A stretch of DNA of 64,000 nucleotides from Acidobacteriaceae bacterium (GTDB lineage: Bacteria > Acidobacteriota > Terriglobia > Terriglobales > Acidobacteriaceae). The DNA lies in NCBI GenBank assembly GCA_030041515.1, contig JASHNS010000086.1:1-64000 (forward strand), written 5' to 3'. The position numbers and the translations under genes were made by a program. Positions within the stretch are counted from its first letter, which is position 1. Each line of letters begins with the position of its first letter. Below the pieces are notes generated by a model. It did no database searches, was not told where the DNA came from, and saw nothing but the letters and a program-made list of their open reading frames with translations. Positions 40,965 through 50,611 of this stretch are shown here, one piece after another.

Positions 40965-43073
40965 TCAATTCCCTGGAGCGGCGGCCGGCGCGGGCGGAAT
41001 GCCGATCTGCCGGGGAGGGGGGAGGGTGTGGTGCTGCTCCCACTGTTCGCGCGCCGCATTGAGCTGGTCGCTGCGATGGATCCACAGTTGCGCATCGGCA
41101 TCGTAGCGGTCGGTGACGTTGCGGAGCCAGTAGGGACGATTTTCCATGAGCCAGACGGCGCTGTAACGGGAGCGCAGGTAATTGTAGCCGTCGCGCAGGT
41201 CTTCGCAGAGGCCGTTCACGCCGGCGACATAGTACAAGTCGCGCTCAGTGTGTTTGGAGATCGACGGATCGTTCTGACCGTTGTAGAGGTGGCGGTAAGT
41301 GTCGGCAATCCGGTCGGCGAGCTGGAACTTGAGCGCGAGAAAGTCCATGCGCCGCGCGCCAAGTTCCATCGCGTCCAGGGCGTCCTGATGGCGCAGGGTG
41401 GCCTGGGCGCGGGCCAGGTCGAGCAGGGTCAGCGCGCGCTCGGCATCGAGGCGAACCTCGGGGGCGATGGGACGAATCTTTGCGGCGATTTCCTGGCCCT
41501 CGTTGCTCCAGGGATCGACCCAGAAATAATCGTCGGTGGCGTCGTCGAGTCCCGCGCGATCGAGGGCCTGCTGCGCGTCAATCAGAGCCTGCTGGGCCTG
41601 GTCGATGTCTCCGCTTTCGTCGCCGTGAAAGACGGGGCCGAAATCGCGCTTGAATTGCGGGATGTCGCTGGAGTCGGGCTGCCATGCGGCGGCGGCGCCG
41701 AAGAGCACGCCGTACCAGTCCTGAAGGAAGAGTCCCTCTCCGTCATCGTCCCATACGGTATTGAGCATGCCTGGGCAGCCGGATTTCTGTCCGTCGGCCA
41801 CGAAGCCCTGAATGTTGGTGAGACCCGCTTCGTAATCGGGCCAGACGCGGCGCCAGTTGTTGATGCCGGGCGAGACCCACGTCTGCATGCCGGCATTGGT
41901 GTAGGGATCAATCCAGCGCGCATAGCCATCCGGCTCGGGATCATATTCCCAGGCGACGGCGATCATGTCGTGGGGAAGTTCCGGGACCAGCTGCGGGCTG
42001 TTCATCGCCATGTCGCCCCAGAAGAGCAGCTGCCGGTGAAGTGGTTCCAGCGCTTTGTGGATGCGGACGAGGTAATCGATATAGGTCTGACCCCAACCGC
42101 GCTGTTTGACTGCCTGGGCTGTCTGTCCCTGGCCCAACTCGAAGGTTTCGTCGGCGCCGATGTGGAGAAACGGTCCGGGGTAGATGCCCGCGAGCTCGTC
42201 GAAATCTTCGGTGATCATGTGGAGCGAACCGGGCTGGCCCGGGGCAAGGACCGCGCCGAAGGGAATCTCGGCGAGGCCGGCGTACTTCTGCCAGAGAAGA
42301 ACTTTGTGGAGATGGCCGAAAGCTTCCTGCTCGGGAATGATGGTGACGTGATAGCGGGCCGCATACGCGACGAGAGTTTTTGCGTCCTGGGCAGAGATGG
42401 AACCGCCGGGAAGCGCGGGGAGAGGGTTCGATGCGTACTGCATCGTGTTCTCGAAGTAGGGCGAGTACACGTTGATTTTGTAGGCGGCGAAGGTGCGAAT
42501 CTGCTTTTCCTGAAAGGCGAGGGTGGGGACGGGTCCTCGGGACAGGTCGTCGTGAATGCCGCGCCAGCGCATGGCGGGCCAGTCGCGGATGACGCCGCCC
42601 TGGAGAATGGGGCCAGTGCCGCCGGTGCGGGCGAGTTGCTTCAGGGTTTGCACGCCGTAGAAGATGCCTGCAGCGGTGTGGCCGATGACGAAGACGCTGT
42701 GGCTCCGGGTGACGAGGACGTAGCCTTCCGAATCCATCGTTCGATCCATCGACTCGTGGTTGCGACGGAGGACGCTGCGGGCCAGGGCGCTGGTATCGCG
42801 CAGGAGATAGATTCGCACGGATGCGGCGGCGCGGATGCGCACACCGCGCGCGCGGAGGCCGTCCCTGAGATTCTGCGCGGCAAAGCGATCCTCGGAATTT
42901 CCGCCGGGGACCAAGATGCGGACGCCGGAGCGGAGGGAAAGATCGGCACGGGCCGCAAATTCGCGCGGCTGGGGAATCAGCGGCGGGCGAGTGTCGGCGT
43001 TTGCAGGAGGAACGAACGATGCAGCAAGAAAGACCAGAACGAGCAAAGCAAGCGAGGATCGGATCACCAACAC
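40965..43073 (-). CDS. GH20 beta-N-acetylhexosaminidase, secreted
   Basis: From a GTG at 43073 the product has 702 aa with a signal peptide (RSSLALLVLVFLAASFVPPANA). A GH20b-type domain (IPQPREFAARADLSL) is followed by the catalytic barrel, with the Asp-Glu pair in HIGADETFELG and WGDMAMNSP, and a C-terminal helical extension. GH20 uses substrate-assisted catalysis to remove GlcNAc or GalNAc. The start is uncertain: no ATG lies near the signal peptide, GTG at 43073 or 43112 fit and the frame runs open to 43259. It heads the operon with a 12-base gap to the symporter, supplying amino sugars from chitin or peptidoglycan. Confidence 0.85.
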   Translation of the reverse strand: MLVIRSSLALLVLVFLAASFVPPANADTRPPLIPQPREFAARADLSLRSGVRILVPGGNSEDRFAAQNLRDGLRARGVRIRAAASVRIYLLRDTSALARSVLRRNHESMDRTMDSEGYVLVTRSHSVFVIGHTAAGIFYGVQTLKQLARTGGTGPILQGGVIRDWPAMRWRGIHDDLSRGPVPTLAFQEKQIRTFAAYKINVYSPYFENTMQYASNPLPALPGGSISAQDAKTLVAYAARYHVTIIPEQEAFGHLHKVLLWQKYAGLAEIPFGAVLAPGQPGSLHMITEDFDELAGIYPGPFLHIGADETFELGQGQTAQAVKQRGWGQTYIDYLVRIHKALEPLHRQLLFWGDMAMNSPQLVPELPHDMIAVAWEYDPEPDGYARWIDPYTNAGMQTWVSPGINNWRRVWPDYEAGLTNIQGFVADGQKSGCPGMLNTVWDDDGEGLFLQDWYGVLFGAAAAWQPDSSDIPQFKRDFGPVFHGDESGDIDQAQQALIDAQQALDRAGLDDATDDYFWVDPWSNEGQEIAAKIRPIAPEVRLDAERALTLLDLARAQATLRHQDALDAMELGARRMDFLALKFQLADRIADTYRHLYNGQNDPSISKHTERDLYYVAGVNGLCEDLRDGYNYLRSRYSAVWLMENRPYWLRNVTDRYDADAQLWIHRSDQLNAAREQWEQHHTLPPPRQIGIPPAPAAAPGN

Positions 43074-43179
43074 GTCATCCCATCTTTGAGAAGTGTTGAA
43101 AAGAAACTTCACCAGTGTAGGCGATTCGATGGGTCTGTGACAGGGAGAGCGAGGAAGCGGAGAAGATTTGGGGCTGGGG

Positions 43180-44634
43180 CTACAGGCTCGTGGTCTGCAG
43201 CGGGAGGCGCACGATGAACTCGGTGTGGCCGGGTCGGGAGGTGAAGTCGATGGTGCCATGGTACTGGGCGCCGACGATGCGGCGCGCGATCTCGAGGCCG
43301 AGGCCGGTGCCGACGCCGGGGGGCTTGGTGGTGAAAAAAGGCTGAAAGATGTGCTCGCGGACCTCAGGAGAGATGCCTTCGCCCTGGTCGGCGACGCCGA
43401 CGCACACCAGGCCGTTTTCGACCCAGGTGCGCACGCGAACCGCGGACTCCGGAGGCGACGCGTCGATGGCGTTGTCTAAGAGATTGGTCCAGACCTGGCT
43501 GAGACCGGTGCCGTGAGTCCGGAGCTTCGGCAGGTCGGCGGCAAAATCCTTCTCGACAGTGAGCTGGCGGTGGCGGAATTTGTGACCGAGGATAGTGAGC
43601 GTGCTCTGGATGCTCTCGTGAACGTCGATGAGATGCTCACCGCCCTTTTCTTCGTAAGCGTATTTTTTGACGGCGAAGACGAGTTCGGTGACGCGACTGA
43701 GGCTTTCTTCAATGGTGGTGAGCTGTTGCATGGCGGAAACAAGGGCAGCCAGCCAGTTGAGCGCGTCCTGGAGGGCAGGGGCGGGGAAGGCTTCCTGCGC
43801 GCAGACGATGTCGCCGCGGCGCCATCCGGCCGCGACGAGCGTAGGAGCCAATCGCCACGAATCGGCGATGCCGATGGTGGTGAGCCATGCCGCGAGCTCC
43901 TGTTCCGCGTCGGCTTCTTCCAGGCTGCCCATGGGCTTTGGTTTTTCCAGCTTCAGAGCTTCGGTCTGCATCTCCAGCAGGCAGGAGCGCTGCTCCTGGG
44001 TGAGAGGAGAACGGCAAAAGCGCATGCTGATGTCCTGCAGGCGAGCGAGGTTCTCGCGCAACTGGGCTGCGGAGCGTTTGGCCGCGGAGCCTGGATTGTT
44101 GAGCTCGTGCATCAGGCCCGCTGCCAGGGTGCCCAGGGAGATGAGCTTTTCCCGATGCAGGGTATTGGCCTGGAAGGCGTGGATGCGCTGCGCGGCGTTG
44201 GCCAGCACGCCTTCGCGGACGGTGGGGCAGCTGGACATGAGCCGCCAGAAACCGTCGGCATCGATGCGCAGCAGGCGCGTGGGGGCGGTGCACTCGCAAA
44301 ACGCGCCGACCAGCCGCGAGCCGAGAAGCAGCGGTGCTTCGCCAAAACTGTCGCCGGTGTGGAAAGTGGCGAGGGGCGTCTCGATGCCGTTTGCTTCCCG
44401 GCGGACCACGTGGACTTCGCCTTCGAGAATGACGCAGAAGGCCGGAGCGCTCTGGCCCTGGTAGAAGAGCACCGCGCCCGCAGGAGCTTCGAGCAACTCG
44501 ACTGCTCCGAGGCAGGGCAGCTCATCGGGCTGCAGGTGCGCGAGGAGCGGCACGGAGCGGACCAGCGGGGACAGTTCCTGGGGGCTTAACACTCTGCCCG
44601 TAACCGCCGATGCCGCGCTGACTTGCTCACCCAT
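43180..44634 (-). CDS. cyclic-nucleotide-binding-domain sensor histidine kinase
   Basis: The product has 484 aa. Residues about 25-150 are a cNMP-binding/Crp-like domain (LAHLQPDELPCLG, GAVLFYQGQSAPAFCVILEGEVHV, FHTGDSFGEAPLLLG), followed by a HisKA-like H-box AAGLMHELNNPGSAAKRSA and a long helical linker, then N-box NLLDNAIDAS, G1 DQGEGI and G2 GTGLGLEIARRI. There is no membrane segment, so it is cytosolic. It starts 11 bases after the receiver/reductase fusion gene and shares its operon. That pairing is conserved in my recollection of acidobacterial and proteobacterial genomes. It probably phosphorylates the fused receiver; the ligand of the cNMP domain is unknown. Confidence 0.88.
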   Translation of the reverse strand: MGEQVSAASAVTGRVLSPQELSPLVRSVPLLAHLQPDELPCLGAVELLEAPAGAVLFYQGQSAPAFCVILEGEVHVVRREANGIETPLATFHTGDSFGEAPLLLGSRLVGAFCECTAPTRLLRIDADGFWRLMSSCPTVREGVLANAAQRIHAFQANTLHREKLISLGTLAAGLMHELNNPGSAAKRSAAQLRENLARLQDISMRFCRSPLTQEQRSCLLEMQTEALKLEKPKPMGSLEEADAEQELAAWLTTIGIADSWRLAPTLVAAGWRRGDIVCAQEAFPAPALQDALNWLAALVSAMQQLTTIEESLSRVTELVFAVKKYAYEEKGGEHLIDVHESIQSTLTILGHKFRHRQLTVEKDFAADLPKLRTHGTGLSQVWTNLLDNAIDASPPESAVRVRTWVENGLVCVGVADQGEGISPEVREHIFQPFFTTKPPGVGTGLGLEIARRIVGAQYHGTIDFTSRPGHTEFIVRLPLQTTSL

Positions 44635-44645
44635 GGTTCAAAATC

Positions 44646-46301
44646 CTAGAACTGCGCCAGATACTGATGCATAAACTGGACCGCGATGGAACCCTCACCC
44701 ACCGCAGAAGCAGCGCGCTTGACCGATCCGTGGCGGACATCGCCGGCAACAAAGACGCCGGGCATGGAAGTCTCGAGGAGATACGGCTCGCGATTCTCTT
44801 TCCAGAGGCGGGGGAGGCGGCCATCGCCGTCGCGGAGATCGCGGCCGGCAAGGACGAAGCCGTTGGGGTCGCGCAGGATGGATTCGGGCAGCCAGTCCGT
44901 CTGAGGGGCTGCGCCGATAAACAGAAAAACCGACGAAGCAGGGCGAATTTCCTCGCCGCGCCGCCCGCGGATGCGCAACTGCTCCAAACGATTCTCGCCC
45001 AGGGCTTCCACAATCTCAGAGTTGGTCTCCACCGTTATATTCGATGTTCCAGCGATCTGATCGATGAGATATTTCGACATGCTCTTCTCGAGGGAGTCGG
45101 CGCGCACCAGCATGGTTACGTTTTTGGCCACATGGGAGAAGTGCATGGCGGCCTGGCCGGCGGAATTGGCGCCACCGACGACATAGACCGACTCGTCCCG
45201 GCAGGACTGGGCCTCGGCCAGGGAAGCGCCGTAGTAGACGCCGGCTCCGGTGAGGCGCTCAATGCCGGGGGCCTGAATGCGGCGGTAGCAAACGCCAACC
45301 GCGATCAGGCAGACACGGCAGGAGACGTTCCTGCTGCCGGCCAGACGTACCTGCCGATACTGACCATCGCAGAGGATTCCCGCAGCGCGCTGGGTGACGA
45401 ATTCAGCGCCGAAGCGCCGCGCCTGATCGACGGCATTGCGCGCGAGGCGCTCGCCGCTGACGCCAAGAGGGAAGCCGAGGTAGTTTTCGATTTTGGAACT
45501 GCTGCCGGCCTGTCCGCCGGGAGCTTCGGGCTCGAGGATCAGGGTCCTGAGCCCCTCGGAGGCGCCGTAGACGGCCGCGGCGAGGCCGGCCATGCCGGCT
45601 CCGGCCACGACGAGATCGTAGAAATCCTGCTCAGCCTGAGTACGCAGGCCAACTTTTTCAGCTAACAGGGCGTCATCGGGTTGGACCAGCGAGGAGCCAT
45701 CGGGAAAGAGGACTGCGGGCAGATGGTTGTCGGAGAGTCCGAACCTGCGGAGAAGTTCGAGGGCCTGCGGGTCTTTCTCCGGATCGACCCAGACGTAAGG
45801 GACCTGATTGCGGGAGAGGAAATTCCGGATCTGATAATCGCGGAGCGACCAACGGGGGCCGACGACGCGGATGCCTTCAAAGGGCGGCTTATACCCCTCG
45901 TTCCAGTCCTCCAGCAGATCGTCGAGAACCGGATACAGGCGCTCTTCGGGAGGGTCCCAGGGCTTGGTGAGGTAATAGTGGATGCGCGCGGAATTGATCG
46001 CGCGAATGGCAGCTTCCGTATCGGCGTAGGCAGTGAGGAGCACGCGGCGCGCCGCGGGAGCTGTCGCCTGGAGGCGTTCGAGCATCTCCACGCCGGTCAT
46101 GCCCGGCATGCGCTGGTCGGAAACGACGAGAGCCACGGGGTCGCCGCGCTCTTTCAACTGCGAGCAGATATCCAGGGCCGCCTGGCCGGAGCCGGCGCGC
46201 AGAACCCTGTAATTCTCGCCGTAATTCCGGCGCAGGTCCTGCACCAGCGCTTCCAGCACGCTGGCATCGTCGTCAACGGCAAGGATGATTGGCCTGGGCA
46301 T
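44646..46301 (-). CDS. fused receiver / glutaredoxin-like / thioredoxin-reductase-like flavoprotein
   Basis: The product has 551 aa. Residues 1-120 are a response-regulator receiver with an acidic DDD pocket (10-12), phospho-acceptor Asp62 (SDQRMPGM), Thr90 and Lys113 (LTKPW). About 145-205 form a glutaredoxin-like fold (YQIRNFLSRNQVPYVWVD, PAVLFPDGS) without a CxxC. About 225-545 are a TrxR-like FAD/NAD(P)H domain with GAGMAG and VVGGANSAGQAA. The redox CxxC expected after GVxY is replaced (GVYYGASLAEAQ), so it cannot reduce disulfides in the known way. Start ATG at 46301 with AGGAT upstream. It is co-transcribed with the cNMP kinase. Databases call this architecture fused response regulator/thioredoxin-disulfide reductase. 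Confidence 0.88.
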   Translation of the reverse strand: MPRPIILAVDDDASVLEALVQDLRRNYGENYRVLRAGSGQAALDICSQLKERGDPVALVVSDQRMPGMTGVEMLERLQATAPAARRVLLTAYADTEAAIRAINSARIHYYLTKPWDPPEERLYPVLDDLLEDWNEGYKPPFEGIRVVGPRWSLRDYQIRNFLSRNQVPYVWVDPEKDPQALELLRRFGLSDNHLPAVLFPDGSSLVQPDDALLAEKVGLRTQAEQDFYDLVVAGAGMAGLAAAVYGASEGLRTLILEPEAPGGQAGSSSKIENYLGFPLGVSGERLARNAVDQARRFGAEFVTQRAAGILCDGQYRQVRLAGSRNVSCRVCLIAVGVCYRRIQAPGIERLTGAGVYYGASLAEAQSCRDESVYVVGGANSAGQAAMHFSHVAKNVTMLVRADSLEKSMSKYLIDQIAGTSNITVETNSEIVEALGENRLEQLRIRGRRGEEIRPASSVFLFIGAAPQTDWLPESILRDPNGFVLAGRDLRDGDGRLPRLWKENREPYLLETSMPGVFVAGDVRHGSVKRAASAVGEGSIAVQFMHQYLAQF

Positions 46302-46721: not shown

Positions 46722-47375
46722 ATGAATAAGCTGATTCTTGCTGATAACCAGGCTATTTTTCGCGCCGGTACTGCCAAAATTTTGGCGATGGAAGATGATT
46801 TTCGCATTATCGCGCAGTGCGCTGACGCCGACCGGCTGCTGCCGGCGCTGGACACCTTTCGGGGTTCTATTGTTTTGTTTGCTTCGTCGTTGAAGCTGGA
46901 TCCGCAAACCTTTGTGCCGCGGCTCCTGGCTGCCGGGAACCGCAGCATCGTGATCGCGGAGAACGGAGAGATGGTCCAGGCGTGGTTTCAGGCGGGTGTG
47001 CATGGCGCTGCGCACAGGAATGTGTCGGGGCCTGCTCTAATTGAATGCGTGCGCCGGGTGGGTGCGGGGGAACGGCACGTTCGGACGATGGGTGTGGACG
47101 CCGGTACCTCAGATGATGCGGTTGGTTCGCGGGTACGGGAACGCCTGACGCCGAAGGAACTGAAGATTGTGGCGCTGATCGTGCAGGGCTGCAAGAACAA
47201 GGAAATCGCAATGCGCCTGGCCACGACCGAACAGGTGATCAAGAATTATCTGCGCAGTATTTACGACAAGACGGGCGTTTCCGATCGGCTGGAGCTGGCG
47301 TTGTTCACGATTCACCACAGGATTCTGGCCGAGGCCGCCCAGGCGATCGGCGACCAGATCATGCAGGGACTGTAA
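46722..47375 (+). CDS. NarL/LuxR-type regulator with degenerate receiver domain
   Basis: The product has 217 aa. The N-terminal half resembles a receiver (LILADNQAIFRAGTAKIL), but the phospho-acceptor position reads IVLFASSL instead of IVLLDxxL and the conserved lysine is not in place (GAAHRNVSG), so phosphorylation is doubtful. The C-terminal half is a standard LuxR HTH (RLTPKELKIVALIVQGCKNKEIAMRLATTEQVIKNYLRSIYDKTGVSDRLELALF). GAGGAAG precedes the ATG at 46722. It is divergent from the receiver/reductase and cNMP-kinase operon and ends before a strong hairpin at 47478. It probably reads another signal or acts as a constitutive binder. Confidence 0.82.
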   Translation: MNKLILADNQAIFRAGTAKILAMEDDFRIIAQCADADRLLPALDTFRGSIVLFASSLKLDPQTFVPRLLAAGNRSIVIAENGEMVQAWFQAGVHGAAHRNVSGPALIECVRRVGAGERHVRTMGVDAGTSDDAVGSRVRERLTPKELKIVALIVQGCKNKEIAMRLATTEQVIKNYLRSIYDKTGVSDRLELALFTIHHRILAEAAQAIGDQIMQGL

Positions 47376-47647: not shown

Positions 47648-50611
47648 CTAGTGCCTCCACTGCGAACCGACACCTGCGAACTGGAAGAACGTGCCGGTTT
47701 CATAGGTAGCCGAGGTCCAGGGCATCTGGAGCACGAAGCGGGCACTGGAGCGGCAACTGCTGAAATCCACTTTGAAGGCGGCCGCGGCCGTGCCGCTCGT
47801 TGGAATATCCCCCAGAGAAATGGGGTAAGGTCCCGGAGCGGTAATCGTCGGCTGACAGCGGCGGCCTGCGATCTGCAGGAGGGAGAGCGAGGTAATTTGG
47901 GTTGCGTAGGCAGGCCCCGCATCGCCGTTCTTCGCGGTGATGGTCCACGTTTGTGACGAGCCCGAAGGATTGGCTGCGGCGAGCGAGAACGAGAGGCCAT
48001 AGCCGGGGAGATGGGTGGGATCGACGATGCCCCAGTAGGCGGGCTTGGCCTGTAGTTGCATGTTGAAGGGCAACGGGTAGTCGGTGCGCGAAACCGGGAA
48101 GCTGTCGAGCCAGGTGTCGTCGTCGGCCATCCCCCACATCGTGACTCCGGTGAGATCGCGGTGGAGACGGCGGAAGAGATCGAAGTAGTCCTTATAGAGC
48201 CAGCCCTGCTCGGCCAGAATTGCCGGCGGGATGTTGTTGCCATAGTTGCTGGTCGTGTTCCCTGCCGCATAGACGCTCTCGTCGAGCTCGGTGATCTGCT
48301 GTTCGAGCTGCGGGAAATCACGATGGACTGTCTCAATGGAATTCGCCATCATCTGGATGGACGGGTAATTGATATTGTTGTGCATCTCGTGGCCGATGCC
48401 GTCGATGGGCACTCCCTGATCGATGAGATTGCGGACCACTTTCACGAGACAGGCGAGCTTTGCCGGGTCGTTGAGGCTGTAATCGTTGAGAAATAGTTTT
48501 GTGCCGGGAGGCGCGTATTGGCGGGCTGCCTGGAAGGCGATATTGATGTACTGCGGGCCGAGGACCTGGTAAAACGGACCGTGGGCGAGGCAGTCAGACT
48601 GCGTGGGATCAATTGGCTCGTTCACGACATCCCAAGCGTAGATCTCGCTGCCGTAGTGCTGGACCTCGTTCTGGATGTGCTCCTGGATGTACTGGGTGAC
48701 GAGCGCCTGATTGGCGGCCGAGCTGGTGCCGTCGCCGAAGGCATAGGAGGGCGTTTGCTCGCCGGTGGCCCAGACCAGGTTCTGCCCGCGGACTTTCATG
48801 CCGTGGCAGACGGCTTCCCCGACTTCAGCATCGCCGTTGGTGTAATCGAAGGTGCCGAAGCTGGGCTCGACGGTGCTCCACTTGAGATCGTTGCCAGGCG
48901 TCATGCTGTTGTAGTGCATGGTGAGCAGCTGGGCGTGCGGGCCGGAGAGGTCCGTCGTGTCTACCGCTGCTCCGATGGGGAAGTAGTCGGCGTAGGTCTT
49001 GTAGATGGAGGGGATGTCGGTCTGGATGACAGGTGGCGGAACATAGGTGAGCTGGAAATCCGTCATGTAGAAGGAGACGTCGTCGGTACCGGAAGCGGGG
49101 ACGGTTTGCAGATACAGATCGGCTGCGCCTGGGTCGTAGGCGCTGCTCATCGTGTAGTTGGTCACGCTGATCTGGTGCCAGGCGCCATCGTCGGGAACGG
49201 TGATGCCGGGGTAGCTGCTGACGCTGGGATAGCTGGTGTTGCCACTGTCGGTGACCTGCAGGCTCATGTTGATGACGTGCGACGACGAGTCGACGGGCTG
49301 CATCATCACCCAGACGCTGAGGTTGTAGACCGATCCCTGATACATCTTGTCACTGACACTGATCTGCGGCCCATTCCAGTTCGCGGTGCGGCCGGTGACG
49401 AGCAGGCTGCTGCTGTCGCCGGCGGGCGGCGTGCCGGGAGAAGCGACGTTCTGGAGTTCTGCGGTACCGCGGCCGCTCCAGCCGTCGAGGGCTCCGTCAG
49501 TAAAAGTGCTGGTAATGCCGGAGTTGTCCTGGTCGCTGACGGGGAGCGGCGGAGGCGTGAGCTCGCTGATGGTGACACCGGAGAGGTAGAAAGAATCCGT
49601 GGCACTGCTGGATTGCACATAGAGGGTCAGGCTGGAGGGCGGGCCAGGGAGATCGCTGAAGCTGAAGGTGCCCTGGACTTTGGTCCAGGCTGTACTGGAA
49701 AGCGCGGCGGAGGTGCCGAAATCTCCATAGACTCCGGAACTGCTCGCGCAATTTGTGGTCTTCGTGGAGAGAGTTACCGTGGGGGCGCTGCTGTCCGCAT
49801 TGGCGAGCATGACGTACGCCGTCACCTGATAGGTGGCGCCGGCCGTGATGTTACTGACGTTGAGCAGATTCAGACTGGGGCCCATGTAAGTTGCGGTGCG
49901 GTTCGTGGTGAGCAGACTGTGGGTGTTTCCGGCCGGGTCCGCGGCGGGCGAAACGACGCTGGTGAGTTGCACCGGGCCGAAGGGCTGCCATCCGTCCGTG
50001 CCGCCGGCAAAGTTGTACGAGGCGACGGGAGTGCCTCCGGGAGGAGGCGCGGTTTCAGTGATGACGACGTCGTCGAGGTAGAAGGATTGGGCGCTGGTGG
50101 CGCCGACGAGCTGGGCGTAGAGCGTGAGTCCGGTCTCCGTGGAGGGGACGACGTAGCTGCCGCCAATCTGGGCCCAGCTGCTGGAGTTGACGGGCACTTC
50201 ATACGCGCCAATGGTGTCGTAGCAGGCGCCGCCAGAGCAGGTGGGGTCGGTACGCTTCATGGTGAAGTCTGCGTTGCCGGAGCTTTCGCCGGGCGTGAGC
50301 AGCACATAGCCGGTGATGGAGTAAGTGGCACCCGCCTGGAGCACGGTGTTGAGCTGAAGAGAGGGCCCTCCCTGGCCACTGCTCGAGGTGGTGGTGAGCA
50401 AGCTGGAGTTGCCGGAGTAGGAAGCAGCGCTGGTCGACACGGGGTTGGCGGCGCCGTTGAAGGCGACCCAGCCATCGGTGCTGTTTTCGAAACTGTAGGT
50501 GGCCACAGTCTGCGCGCGTGCGGGAGAGGCGAGAGAGGACACCGCGATCAGAAAGGCGGCGGCAATGAGGTGGGAGAGAAGGCGGCGGGGAACTGTGGCG
50601 GAACGAAGCAT
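47648..50611 (-). CDS. GH10 endo-1,4-beta-xylanase with three N-terminal CBM-like modules
   Basis: The product has 987 aa: a signal peptide ending ARA-QT (about 1-34), three CBM4/9-like beta-sandwich modules (about 35-187, 195-350 and 365-523) each starting with a [Y/F]xFxx(S/G)xDGW motif, then a GH10 domain (about 530-870) with acid/base Glu665 in WDVVNEP and nucleophile Glu775 in ITELDES, and a C-terminal beta domain (about 880-987). It cuts xylan with retention of configuration. AGGAGACG precedes the ATG. Its own near-consensus promoter lies at 50700-50729. The modules have diverged, so the triplication is old. Together with the GH9 and GH30 genes it shows xylan/cellulose growth. Confidence 0.93.
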   Translation of the reverse strand: MLRSATVPRRLLSHLIAAAFLIAVSSLASPARAQTVATYSFENSTDGWVAFNGAANPVSTSAASYSGNSSLLTTTSSSGQGGPSLQLNTVLQAGATYSITGYVLLTPGESSGNADFTMKRTDPTCSGGACYDTIGAYEVPVNSSSWAQIGGSYVVPSTETGLTLYAQLVGATSAQSFYLDDVVITETAPPPGGTPVASYNFAGGTDGWQPFGPVQLTSVVSPAADPAGNTHSLLTTNRTATYMGPSLNLLNVSNITAGATYQVTAYVMLANADSSAPTVTLSTKTTNCASSSGVYGDFGTSAALSSTAWTKVQGTFSFSDLPGPPSSLTLYVQSSSATDSFYLSGVTISELTPPPLPVSDQDNSGITSTFTDGALDGWSGRGTAELQNVASPGTPPAGDSSSLLVTGRTANWNGPQISVSDKMYQGSVYNLSVWVMMQPVDSSSHVINMSLQVTDSGNTSYPSVSSYPGITVPDDGAWHQISVTNYTMSSAYDPGAADLYLQTVPASGTDDVSFYMTDFQLTYVPPPVIQTDIPSIYKTYADYFPIGAAVDTTDLSGPHAQLLTMHYNSMTPGNDLKWSTVEPSFGTFDYTNGDAEVGEAVCHGMKVRGQNLVWATGEQTPSYAFGDGTSSAANQALVTQYIQEHIQNEVQHYGSEIYAWDVVNEPIDPTQSDCLAHGPFYQVLGPQYINIAFQAARQYAPPGTKLFLNDYSLNDPAKLACLVKVVRNLIDQGVPIDGIGHEMHNNINYPSIQMMANSIETVHRDFPQLEQQITELDESVYAAGNTTSNYGNNIPPAILAEQGWLYKDYFDLFRRLHRDLTGVTMWGMADDDTWLDSFPVSRTDYPLPFNMQLQAKPAYWGIVDPTHLPGYGLSFSLAAANPSGSSQTWTITAKNGDAGPAYATQITSLSLLQIAGRRCQPTITAPGPYPISLGDIPTSGTAAAAFKVDFSSCRSSARFVLQMPWTSATYETGTFFQFAGVGSQWRH

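Follow-up and report, generated by a model that had tools for sequence, protein, structure and literature searches.

A receiver-fused, cysteine-less thioredoxin reductase-like flavoprotein, its partner kinase and a genomic association with ergothioneine biosynthesis

What does a two-component system control when the output of its response regulator resembles a thioredoxin reductase (TrxR) without redox cysteines? The question is raised by positions 43180-46301 of the stretch analyzed here (the window), which comprises positions 1 to 64,000 of the forward strand of contig JASHNS010000086.1 from an Acidobacteriaceae bacterium (assembly GCA_030041515.1). Two minus-strand genes with 11 bp between them, P0001 and P0002, occupy this interval and encode a receiver-reductase fusion and a histidine kinase. 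We found that none of 124 aligned rows of the P0001 family has a Cys at either active-site position, that a P0002-like kinase accompanies the receiver-bearing members in nearly every acidobacterial genome that has them, and that the presence of the family goes with that of the ergothioneine pathway in three groups of bacteria. Our preferred reading, held tentatively and at a little less than an even chance, is an NAD(P)H-flavin reductase that acts in the redox metabolism of ergothioneine and is controlled by phosphorylation through the P0002-P0001 system. As judged from sequence, P0001 would be a response regulator with a Cys-less TrxR-like output, tied by genome evidence to ergothioneine. Titles and abstract beginnings in the CC-licensed PMC literature yielded no paper on such a receiver-reductase/kinase pair. 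The features of P0001 are given below, with the evidence in brackets.

44646..46301, minus strand: P0001, receiver, glutaredoxin (Grx)-like and TrxR-like flavoprotein, 551 aa (open reading frame (ORF), Pfam, AlphaFold2)
45927..46301, minus strand: receiver, residues about 1-125, with the D62 codon at 46116-46118 (Pfam Response_reg, 9e-18)
45648..45884, minus strand: glutaredoxin/thioredoxin-like domain, residues about 140-218, without C-x-x-C (alignment, Pfam, AlphaFold2)
44649..45626, minus strand: TrxR-like FAD/NAD(P)H module, residues 226-551 (Pfam Pyr_redox_2, structural fit to TrxRs)
45309..45320, minus strand: literal C-x-x-C, C328-R-V-C331, off the active site (alignment and model)
45216..45227, minus strand: vacated redox-centre site A359-S-L-A362, beside Y356-Y357-G358 and E363 (no Cys in 124 rows)

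The vacated redox site and the architecture of P0001

The analysis of the cysteines is based on an alignment of 129 rows, which includes P0001, its copy L001, two duplicated paralogues from its own genome and the canonical TrxR of the same genome (L004). Removal of P0001, L119, L120, L131 and L004 left a set of 124 family rows. The CATC positions of Escherichia coli TrxR, aligned by eye, correspond to A359-S-L-A362 of P0001, and none of the 124 rows has a Cys at column 359 or 362. Column 359 holds Ala in 105 rows, Ser in 13 and Gly in 6, and column 362 is mostly Thr (85) or Ser (16). The residues around the site are nearly fixed (Y357 in 123, G358 in 122 and E363 in 123 of the 124 rows), and the E363 column is Asp in L004. 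The initial annotation had described a reductase without the TrxR dithiol, and the conservation check bears this out, with no homologue among the 124 rows that has a Cys at either position. Its phrase that the protein had lost its redox cysteines implied a local event, and this part has to be given up: the absence extends to 124/124 rows, a loss confined to one lineage is rejected, and on sequence the Cys-less active site is the rule across the family. Homologues sharing these traits are spread over many phyla, so that chance is not the explanation.

The same annotation stated that neither the reductase nor the Grx-like part has a CxxC. This is right for the TrxR site and for the Grx-like stretch, where C-x-x-C occurs in none of the 129 aligned rows (a few rows lack the stretch altogether), but not for the whole protein, in which C328-R-V-C331 lies in strand 325-333 of the model, just ahead of a conserved A-[TV]-G segment. 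This pair was rejected as a substitute dithiol, since Cys is found at 331 in only 20/124 rows. C367 was also considered as a lone catalytic Cys, by comparison with Bdr, and is unlikely to be one: 101/124 rows have Cys at the position, and 22 have Tyr, Val, Phe or Thr.

The remaining parts of P0001 are well preserved, as had been claimed for the receiver and for both nucleotide motifs. Pfam places Response_reg at residues 6-118 and Pyr_redox_2 at 228-537. D10, D62 and K113 (the acidic residue, the phospho-Asp and the Lys) are invariant across 76 aligned receiver-reductases; this conservation is taken from the 76-row set, the receiver-type label of the 129-row set being defined by residues 10, 62 and 113. 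The flavin adenine dinucleotide (FAD) motif GxGxxG (G234, G236, G239) and the GGxNSAGQ motif are both present, and G234, G236, G239, G376, N379, R400, G520 and D521 are each conserved in at least 97% of the 124 rows. Within GxGxxG, P0001 has Met at residue 237 (codon 45591-45593), while 123/124 rows have Pro. The NADPH-selecting HRRxxxR of TrxR corresponds to VRADSLE in P0001, and R400 is the one Arg of this region kept family-wide. The glutaredoxin-like fold that had been proposed is seen at residues about 140-218 of the AlphaFold2 model (mean pLDDT 90.0, 76-row alignment), and the Pfam Glutaredoxin model is reached by 5 of the 76 members. P195 of this domain is kept in 120/124 rows and was read by eye as the cis-Pro of the Grx-like fold.

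We then compared P0001 with known flavoproteins. It shares the FAD and NAD(P)H folds with the low-Mr TrxRs (TrxB, TIGR01292), with 21-32% identity over 50 structural rows that are mostly TrxRs, but differs from TrxB by having no CxxC, by its changed NADPH motif and by the added receiver and Grx-like domains. Its score against the NCBIfam model TIGR01292 is 187.4, below the cut-off of 343.45, and the segment with R504 and P506 does not align to L004. Superposed on Lactococcus TrxR, the model matches the flavin-reducing form 5mh4 (Z 35.9, root-mean-square deviation (rmsd) 1.7 over 300 residues) much more closely than the oxidizing form 5mjk_A (Z 30.4, rmsd 7.3). Because the model is one predicted conformation, this fit is no more than compatible with an enzyme that can dispense with the state in which the dithiol is reached. 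In AhpF, too, a thioredoxin-like part precedes a TrxR-like module (4o5q, Z 30.7), but it uses dithiols in both parts, unlike P0001, which scores 121.7 with the AhpF model against a cut-off of 502.9.

In lacking the CxxC within a TrxR fold, P0001 resembles the TrxR-like FNRs and Bdr/YpdA. TrxR-like enzymes of this kind are described as passing flavin electrons to an external acceptor: the FNRs reduce ferredoxin or flavodoxin, and the Cys-less Bdr/YpdA is reported to reduce a small-thiol disulfide, bacillithiol disulfide (PMC10294844). The TrxR-like FNRs fit the P0001 model less well (Z 27-28.6), the score with the Bdr model TIGR04018 is 49.6 (cut-off 339.9), and the P0001 family differs from both in its regulatory input domains. 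In RefSeq, family members bear the product names "cyclic nucleotide-binding domain-containing thioredoxin-disulfide reductase" or "FAD-dependent oxidoreductase". For members that have no dithiol, a name that includes disulfide reductase is probably a misnomer. In the available text of a review on Deinococcus thiol reductases (PMC8945050), the terms cyclic-nucleotide, receiver and ergothioneine do not appear.

The partner kinase and the exchange of input domains

P0002 has the parts of a histidine kinase, together with a cNMP (cyclic nucleoside monophosphate)-fold domain and a helical insert.

43180..44634, minus strand: P0002, histidine kinase with an N-terminal cNMP-fold domain, 484 aa (ORF, Pfam, AlphaFold2)
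44230..44601, minus strand: cNMP-fold domain, residues 12-135 (Pfam cNMP_binding, 4.6e-15)
44107..44109, minus strand: codon of the phospho-acceptor His176 (invariant in 69 kinases)
43789..43998, minus strand: four inserted helices, residues 213-282 (AlphaFold2, ten-residue pLDDT means >90)
43195..43635, minus strand: catalytic ATP-binding domain, residues 334-480 (Pfam HATPase_c)

The association of the two genes was first examined in 297 Acidobacteriota genomes, where a match starting at residue 1-3 of P0001 was taken as the receiver form and a P0002-like match at E<=1e-30 as presence of the kinase. The kinase was found in 33 of the 34 genomes with a receiver-length match, and in 1 of the 18 that have other reductase forms only. 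This one genome (G121) contains an N-terminally shortened homologue adjoining the kinase. At the level of the locus, the kinase lies within the 1.5-kb flank at 30/30 receiver-reductase loci (L001, L009-L037), and a kinase-profile match is present in the flank read at 71 of 80 further loci from many phyla; some of the 9 others are on short contigs. In 58 of these 80 wider loci the kinase is the immediate same-strand neighbor, downstream in 39 and upstream in 19, and this same partnership in two gene orders argues for function and not for inherited order. Several of these neighboring reductase and kinase genes overlap by at least 1 base, and in Streptomyces fungicidicus the overlaps that join the genes for the reductase, the kinase and zf-UBP are 4 bp long. 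The similarities of adjacent partners also correlate (Spearman 0.64, 53 loci), a value to which shared ancestry contributes and which is built on overlapping pairs of related sequences, so that its p-value should be ignored. The proposal of a dedicated kinase/receiver pair is supported by these counts. P0002-type kinases were also seen at L118, L122, L124, L125, L127 and L128, with no family reductase in the stretches examined.

Pfam assigns cNMP_binding to residues 49-135 of P0002 and HATPase_c to residues 376-480, and the AlphaFold2 model has a mean pLDDT of 92.8 (69-row alignment). The phospho-acceptor H176 and, in the N and G boxes that bind ATP, N388, D416, G418, G420, G440, G442, G444 and G446 are invariant in the 69 aligned kinases. 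HATPase_c is found in all 69 and cNMP_binding in 65, while HisKA is found in only 20. In the P0002 model, helices 213-282 interrupt the dimerization/phosphotransfer hairpin, between 137-208 and 285-327, and this four-helix insert may be the reason for the low HisKA scores. No Pfam family matched the insert (43789-43998) at E 0.001, and Foldseek with the P0002 model matched kinase cores, a result that covers the core and not the insert.

That the kinase carries a cNMP-like sensor, as the initial annotation put it, stands as regards the fold, but the residues that would contact a ligand vary from kinase to kinase. In the phosphate-binding cassette, Glu is found at its column in 30 of the 69, including P0002 (E99), and Arg occurs in at most 29/69 at any of the following columns up to 124. 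P0002 has an Arg in addition to E99, namely R107, which is closer to the Glu than is the Arg in PKA or CRP. With the ligand residues so variable, sensing of cAMP by the kinases as a family is unlikely and a cyclic-nucleotide ligand for the family is doubtful on sequence; P0002 itself may bind a cyclic nucleotide.

The reductase core is not restricted to the receiver. Fifty-two of the 297 Acidobacteriota genomes carry the family, and some matches span only residues of about 144-550. Nine non-receiver reductases were scanned: seven have a cNMP_binding domain where the receiver would be, L130 has no detected regulatory domain, and in L002 an N-terminal extension overlaps an upstream old-yellow-enzyme-like ORF, with a regulatory domain probably absent. 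A paralogue in the window's own genome (L119:4824-6703, contig C60) is without a detectable regulatory domain and lies between an old-yellow-enzyme-like ORF and a zf-UBP gene. Of 11 non-receiver regions (L119, L120, L121, L123, L126, L129, L130, L132, L135, L136 and L137), 9 had no kinase-profile match, and in L123 and L136 the profile matched weakly, to the reductase ORFs and to nothing else. A quick 108-row tree accounts for the receiver label with 3 changes, and one row labeled as non-receiver, L131, is an N-terminally shortened homologue adjoining the kinase; the receiver fusion thus probably corresponds to roughly one lineage. The simplest reading of these sequences would be one oxidoreductase core under swappable control modules, with the cNMP-fold domain of the receiver branch placed on the partner kinase instead of on the reductase.

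Ergothioneine biosynthesis and the possible acceptor

In Acidobacteriota, the ergothioneine methyltransferase EgtD is present in 119/297 genomes, that is, in 50 of the 52 reductase carriers vs 69 of the 245 others (odds ratio 64). The difference is seen within the window's own family (26/26 carriers vs 1/5 others) and outside it (24/26 vs 68/240), and also when counted by genus (29/31 vs 48/136). Two further samples took in the phylum of the L099 genome (Dyadobacter), here called Bacteroidota, and the order of the L088 genome (Caballeronia), here called Burkholderiales; EgtD was found there in 20/23 carriers vs 23/125 others and in 7/7 carriers vs 26/76 others, respectively. Moreover, 44 of the 49 genomes behind the receiver-form loci have EgtD, a count that covers carriers only. 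The Fisher tests treat genomes as independent, and the genus-level count eases this kinship effect but does not remove it. Catalase, used as a control gene in Acidobacteriota, is present in 22/52 carriers vs 30/245 others (odds ratio 5), and zf-UBP in 42/52 vs 19/245 (odds ratio 50).

The gene neighborhoods give a similar picture in a few genomes. We scanned 220 of the 395 called neighbors with Pfam (hand-picked, mostly the nearest two per side) and considered the 25 commonest families. Eight of the 220 are zf-UBP, and the EgtD histidine methyltransferase family appears 4 times (in a batch of 113); by profile, a zf-UBP ORF is present in 22 of the 80 wider loci. Two Dyadobacter loci (L099, L111) have on one strand an egtU-like transporter gene, egtB, egtD, the kinase, the receiver-reductase and zf-UBP, and the order in Pararcticibacter (L093) is egtB, egtD, kinase, reductase. 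In a third Dyadobacter (L097) the Egt genes lie beyond zf-UBP on the opposite strand. In the acidobacterial L144, one strand carries in order zf-UBP, a cNMP-reductase, a gene like egtB and a partly masked egtD, and at L140-L143 and L129 the reductase, zf-UBP and Egt genes are nearby in other orientations. EgtB scores 521 in L099, 530.9 in L093 and 557.8 in the window's genome (NCBIfam cut-off 360), and EgtD scores 350.8 in the window's genome, above the cut-off of 290.9, and 286.1 in L099, just below it. SenA, a model for selenoneine, is below its cut-off in L099, L093 and the window's genome. The egtU-like gene in L099 and L111 is a putative transporter gene, predicted from OpuAC and BPD_transp_1 domains and from likeness to a fused ergothioneine transporter, EgtU, that has been described (PMC9732360).

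Together, the links to ergothioneine and to zf-UBP speak for a role in metabolism. In the mechanism that we propose, P0002 would autophosphorylate at His176 and pass the phosphate to Asp62 of P0001, and the phosphorylated receiver would gate the NAD(P)H-reduced FAD module and thereby set its rate. As the enzyme has no dithiol, the flavin electrons would go straight to an external acceptor, of which the likeliest may be oxidized ergothioneine (as disulfide or 5-oxo form) or a partner carrying it. This acceptor is proposed because the family goes with EgtD in the three groups sampled and in a few genomes has the same orientation as a neighboring egtB-egtD, and Bdr/YpdA, with its small-thiol disulfide, provides an analogue. 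A review table lists ergothioneine with a potential of -60 mV and its transferase as unknown (PMC10950700), and at so high a potential the reduction of its disulfide by a flavin should be thermodynamically easy.

Several observations weigh against this reading. The case for the substrate is made from genomes and not from biochemistry, and a selenium TrxR is reported to reduce ergothioneine disulfide directly but non-selenium TrxRs hardly do so (PMC8868364), which leaves a flavin-only route unproven. Ergothioneine does not require the reductase, given EgtD in 69 of the 245 non-carriers, and in 5 of the 49 genomes behind receiver-form loci EgtD was not found. In the window's genome egtB-egtD is on a separate contig from the reductase. 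Of the 50 Acidobacteriota genomes that have EgtD and the reductase, only 6 have Egt genes within 5 kb of it by the positions of the matches, and these 6 are all outside the window's own family; the figure is 1 of 20 for Bacteroidota, and 4/80 of the wider loci have Egt genes at this distance. The pairing has exceptions as well: G231 has a receiver-length reductase without a kinase match, and 5 of the 39 kinase-positive Acidobacteriota genomes are without a reductase match. Finally, the zf-UBP correlation is about as strong as that of EgtD, and catalase is enriched too, though less, so that shared lifestyle could drive part of the correlation.

A rival explanation is an NAD(P)H reductase, likewise gated by phosphorylation, whose electrons go to a protein, ferredoxin/flavodoxin-like or zf-UBP, in general stress or protein quality control, with the Egt correlation reflecting lifestyle. 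The FNRs without CxxC reduce ferredoxin or flavodoxin (PMC10294844), the zf-UBP link is comparable to that of EgtD, and a Streptomyces angustmyceticus plasmid (L154) has the order dnaJ-type, cbpM, clpB, trxA, zf-UBP, cNMP-reductase, a heat-shock-like setting. We nevertheless regard this explanation as rather unlikely: the 25 commonest families of the scanned neighbors include neither a ferredoxin nor a flavodoxin (rarer families fall outside that listing), the last residue of P0001, 551, aligns to residue 322 of the 346-residue FNR1 chain 6gar, so that the C-terminal part, which in the TrxR-like FNRs and Bdr stacks on the FAD of the partner subunit, appears shorter than in FNR1, and catalase correlates far less than EgtD, which speaks against lifestyle. 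A more specific form of the ergothioneine proposal, in which the family is a dedicated reductase, oxidized ergothioneine bound at the former CxxC site replaces the lost cysteines with Y356-Y357 and E363 as lining, exchangeable inputs (a phosphorelay here, a cNMP-fold domain elsewhere) set the activity and zf-UBP is accessory, seems to us rather unlikely as it stands.

The initial annotation had itself suggested that the pair senses NAD(P)H or flavin redox state and feeds or receives phosphorylation. The intact receiver on a flavoprotein and the conservation of the kinase partner would fit this, but in other members the core follows a cNMP-fold domain or apparently lacks any regulatory domain, and its conserved function therefore needs no phosphorelay. 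Such exchange of inputs is what an enzymatic output would show; response regulators with an enzyme as output usually carry the receiver on its N-terminal side, and nothing was found that links flavin state to the kinase. We consider a sensor improbable on these grounds. A catalytically dead TrxR-like scaffold, kept for signaling or binding only, is more remote still: both cysteine sites are gone and the HRRxxxR motif reads VRADSLE, but FAD and dinucleotide motifs kept at >=97% of the 124 rows are more than would be expected of a dead fold.

The preferred reading, a reductase of ergothioneine metabolism under kinase control, would matter because the physiological function of ergothioneine is described as not yet understood (PMC9516567), and the selenium-dependent reaction of mammalian TrxR is presented as the first discovered direct recycling system for its oxidized forms (PMC8868364). 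This widespread flavoprotein family, putatively under kinase control and associated with EgtD in three bacterial groups, offers a concrete candidate enzyme. If the reading is true, it would explain why many proteins of the fold, with at least 589 relatives matched, lack the cysteines implied by the fold and by some names, and would hint at what zf-UBP proteins do in bacteria.

Other genes around the family

One further gene of the window may concern the P0001-P0002 operon.

46722..47375, plus strand: LuxR-type regulator with a degenerate receiver (GerE, 3.2e-11; the ATG at 46722 was picked via alignment)

This divergently transcribed regulator of the LuxR/NarL type may control the operon; its receiver reads FASSL and no longer has the phospho-Asp context that is usual there. 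Its relatives (E<=1e-8) are present at 20/20 of the closest related reductase loci (L009-L028), at 0/9 of L029-L037 (1.5-kb flanks) and at 8/80 of L038-L117, where the copy in L068 is distant (26% identical). The flanking genes, a GH20 hexosaminidase (40965-43259) and a GH10 protein with CBM_4_9 domains (47648-50611), are apparently unrelated.

Among the scanned neighbors elsewhere, HATPase_c was found in 5/113, some of them probably kinases of the same system, and GerE-type regulators (4/107) and LtrA (3/107) recur weakly. An LtrA (low temperature requirement) gene is also found near the family at L152:10334-11563, on a Deinococcus aetherius plasmid. DUF5996 recurs beside the zf-UBP/Egt clusters of Acidobacteriota in 5 loci (L140, L141, L142, L145 and L146).

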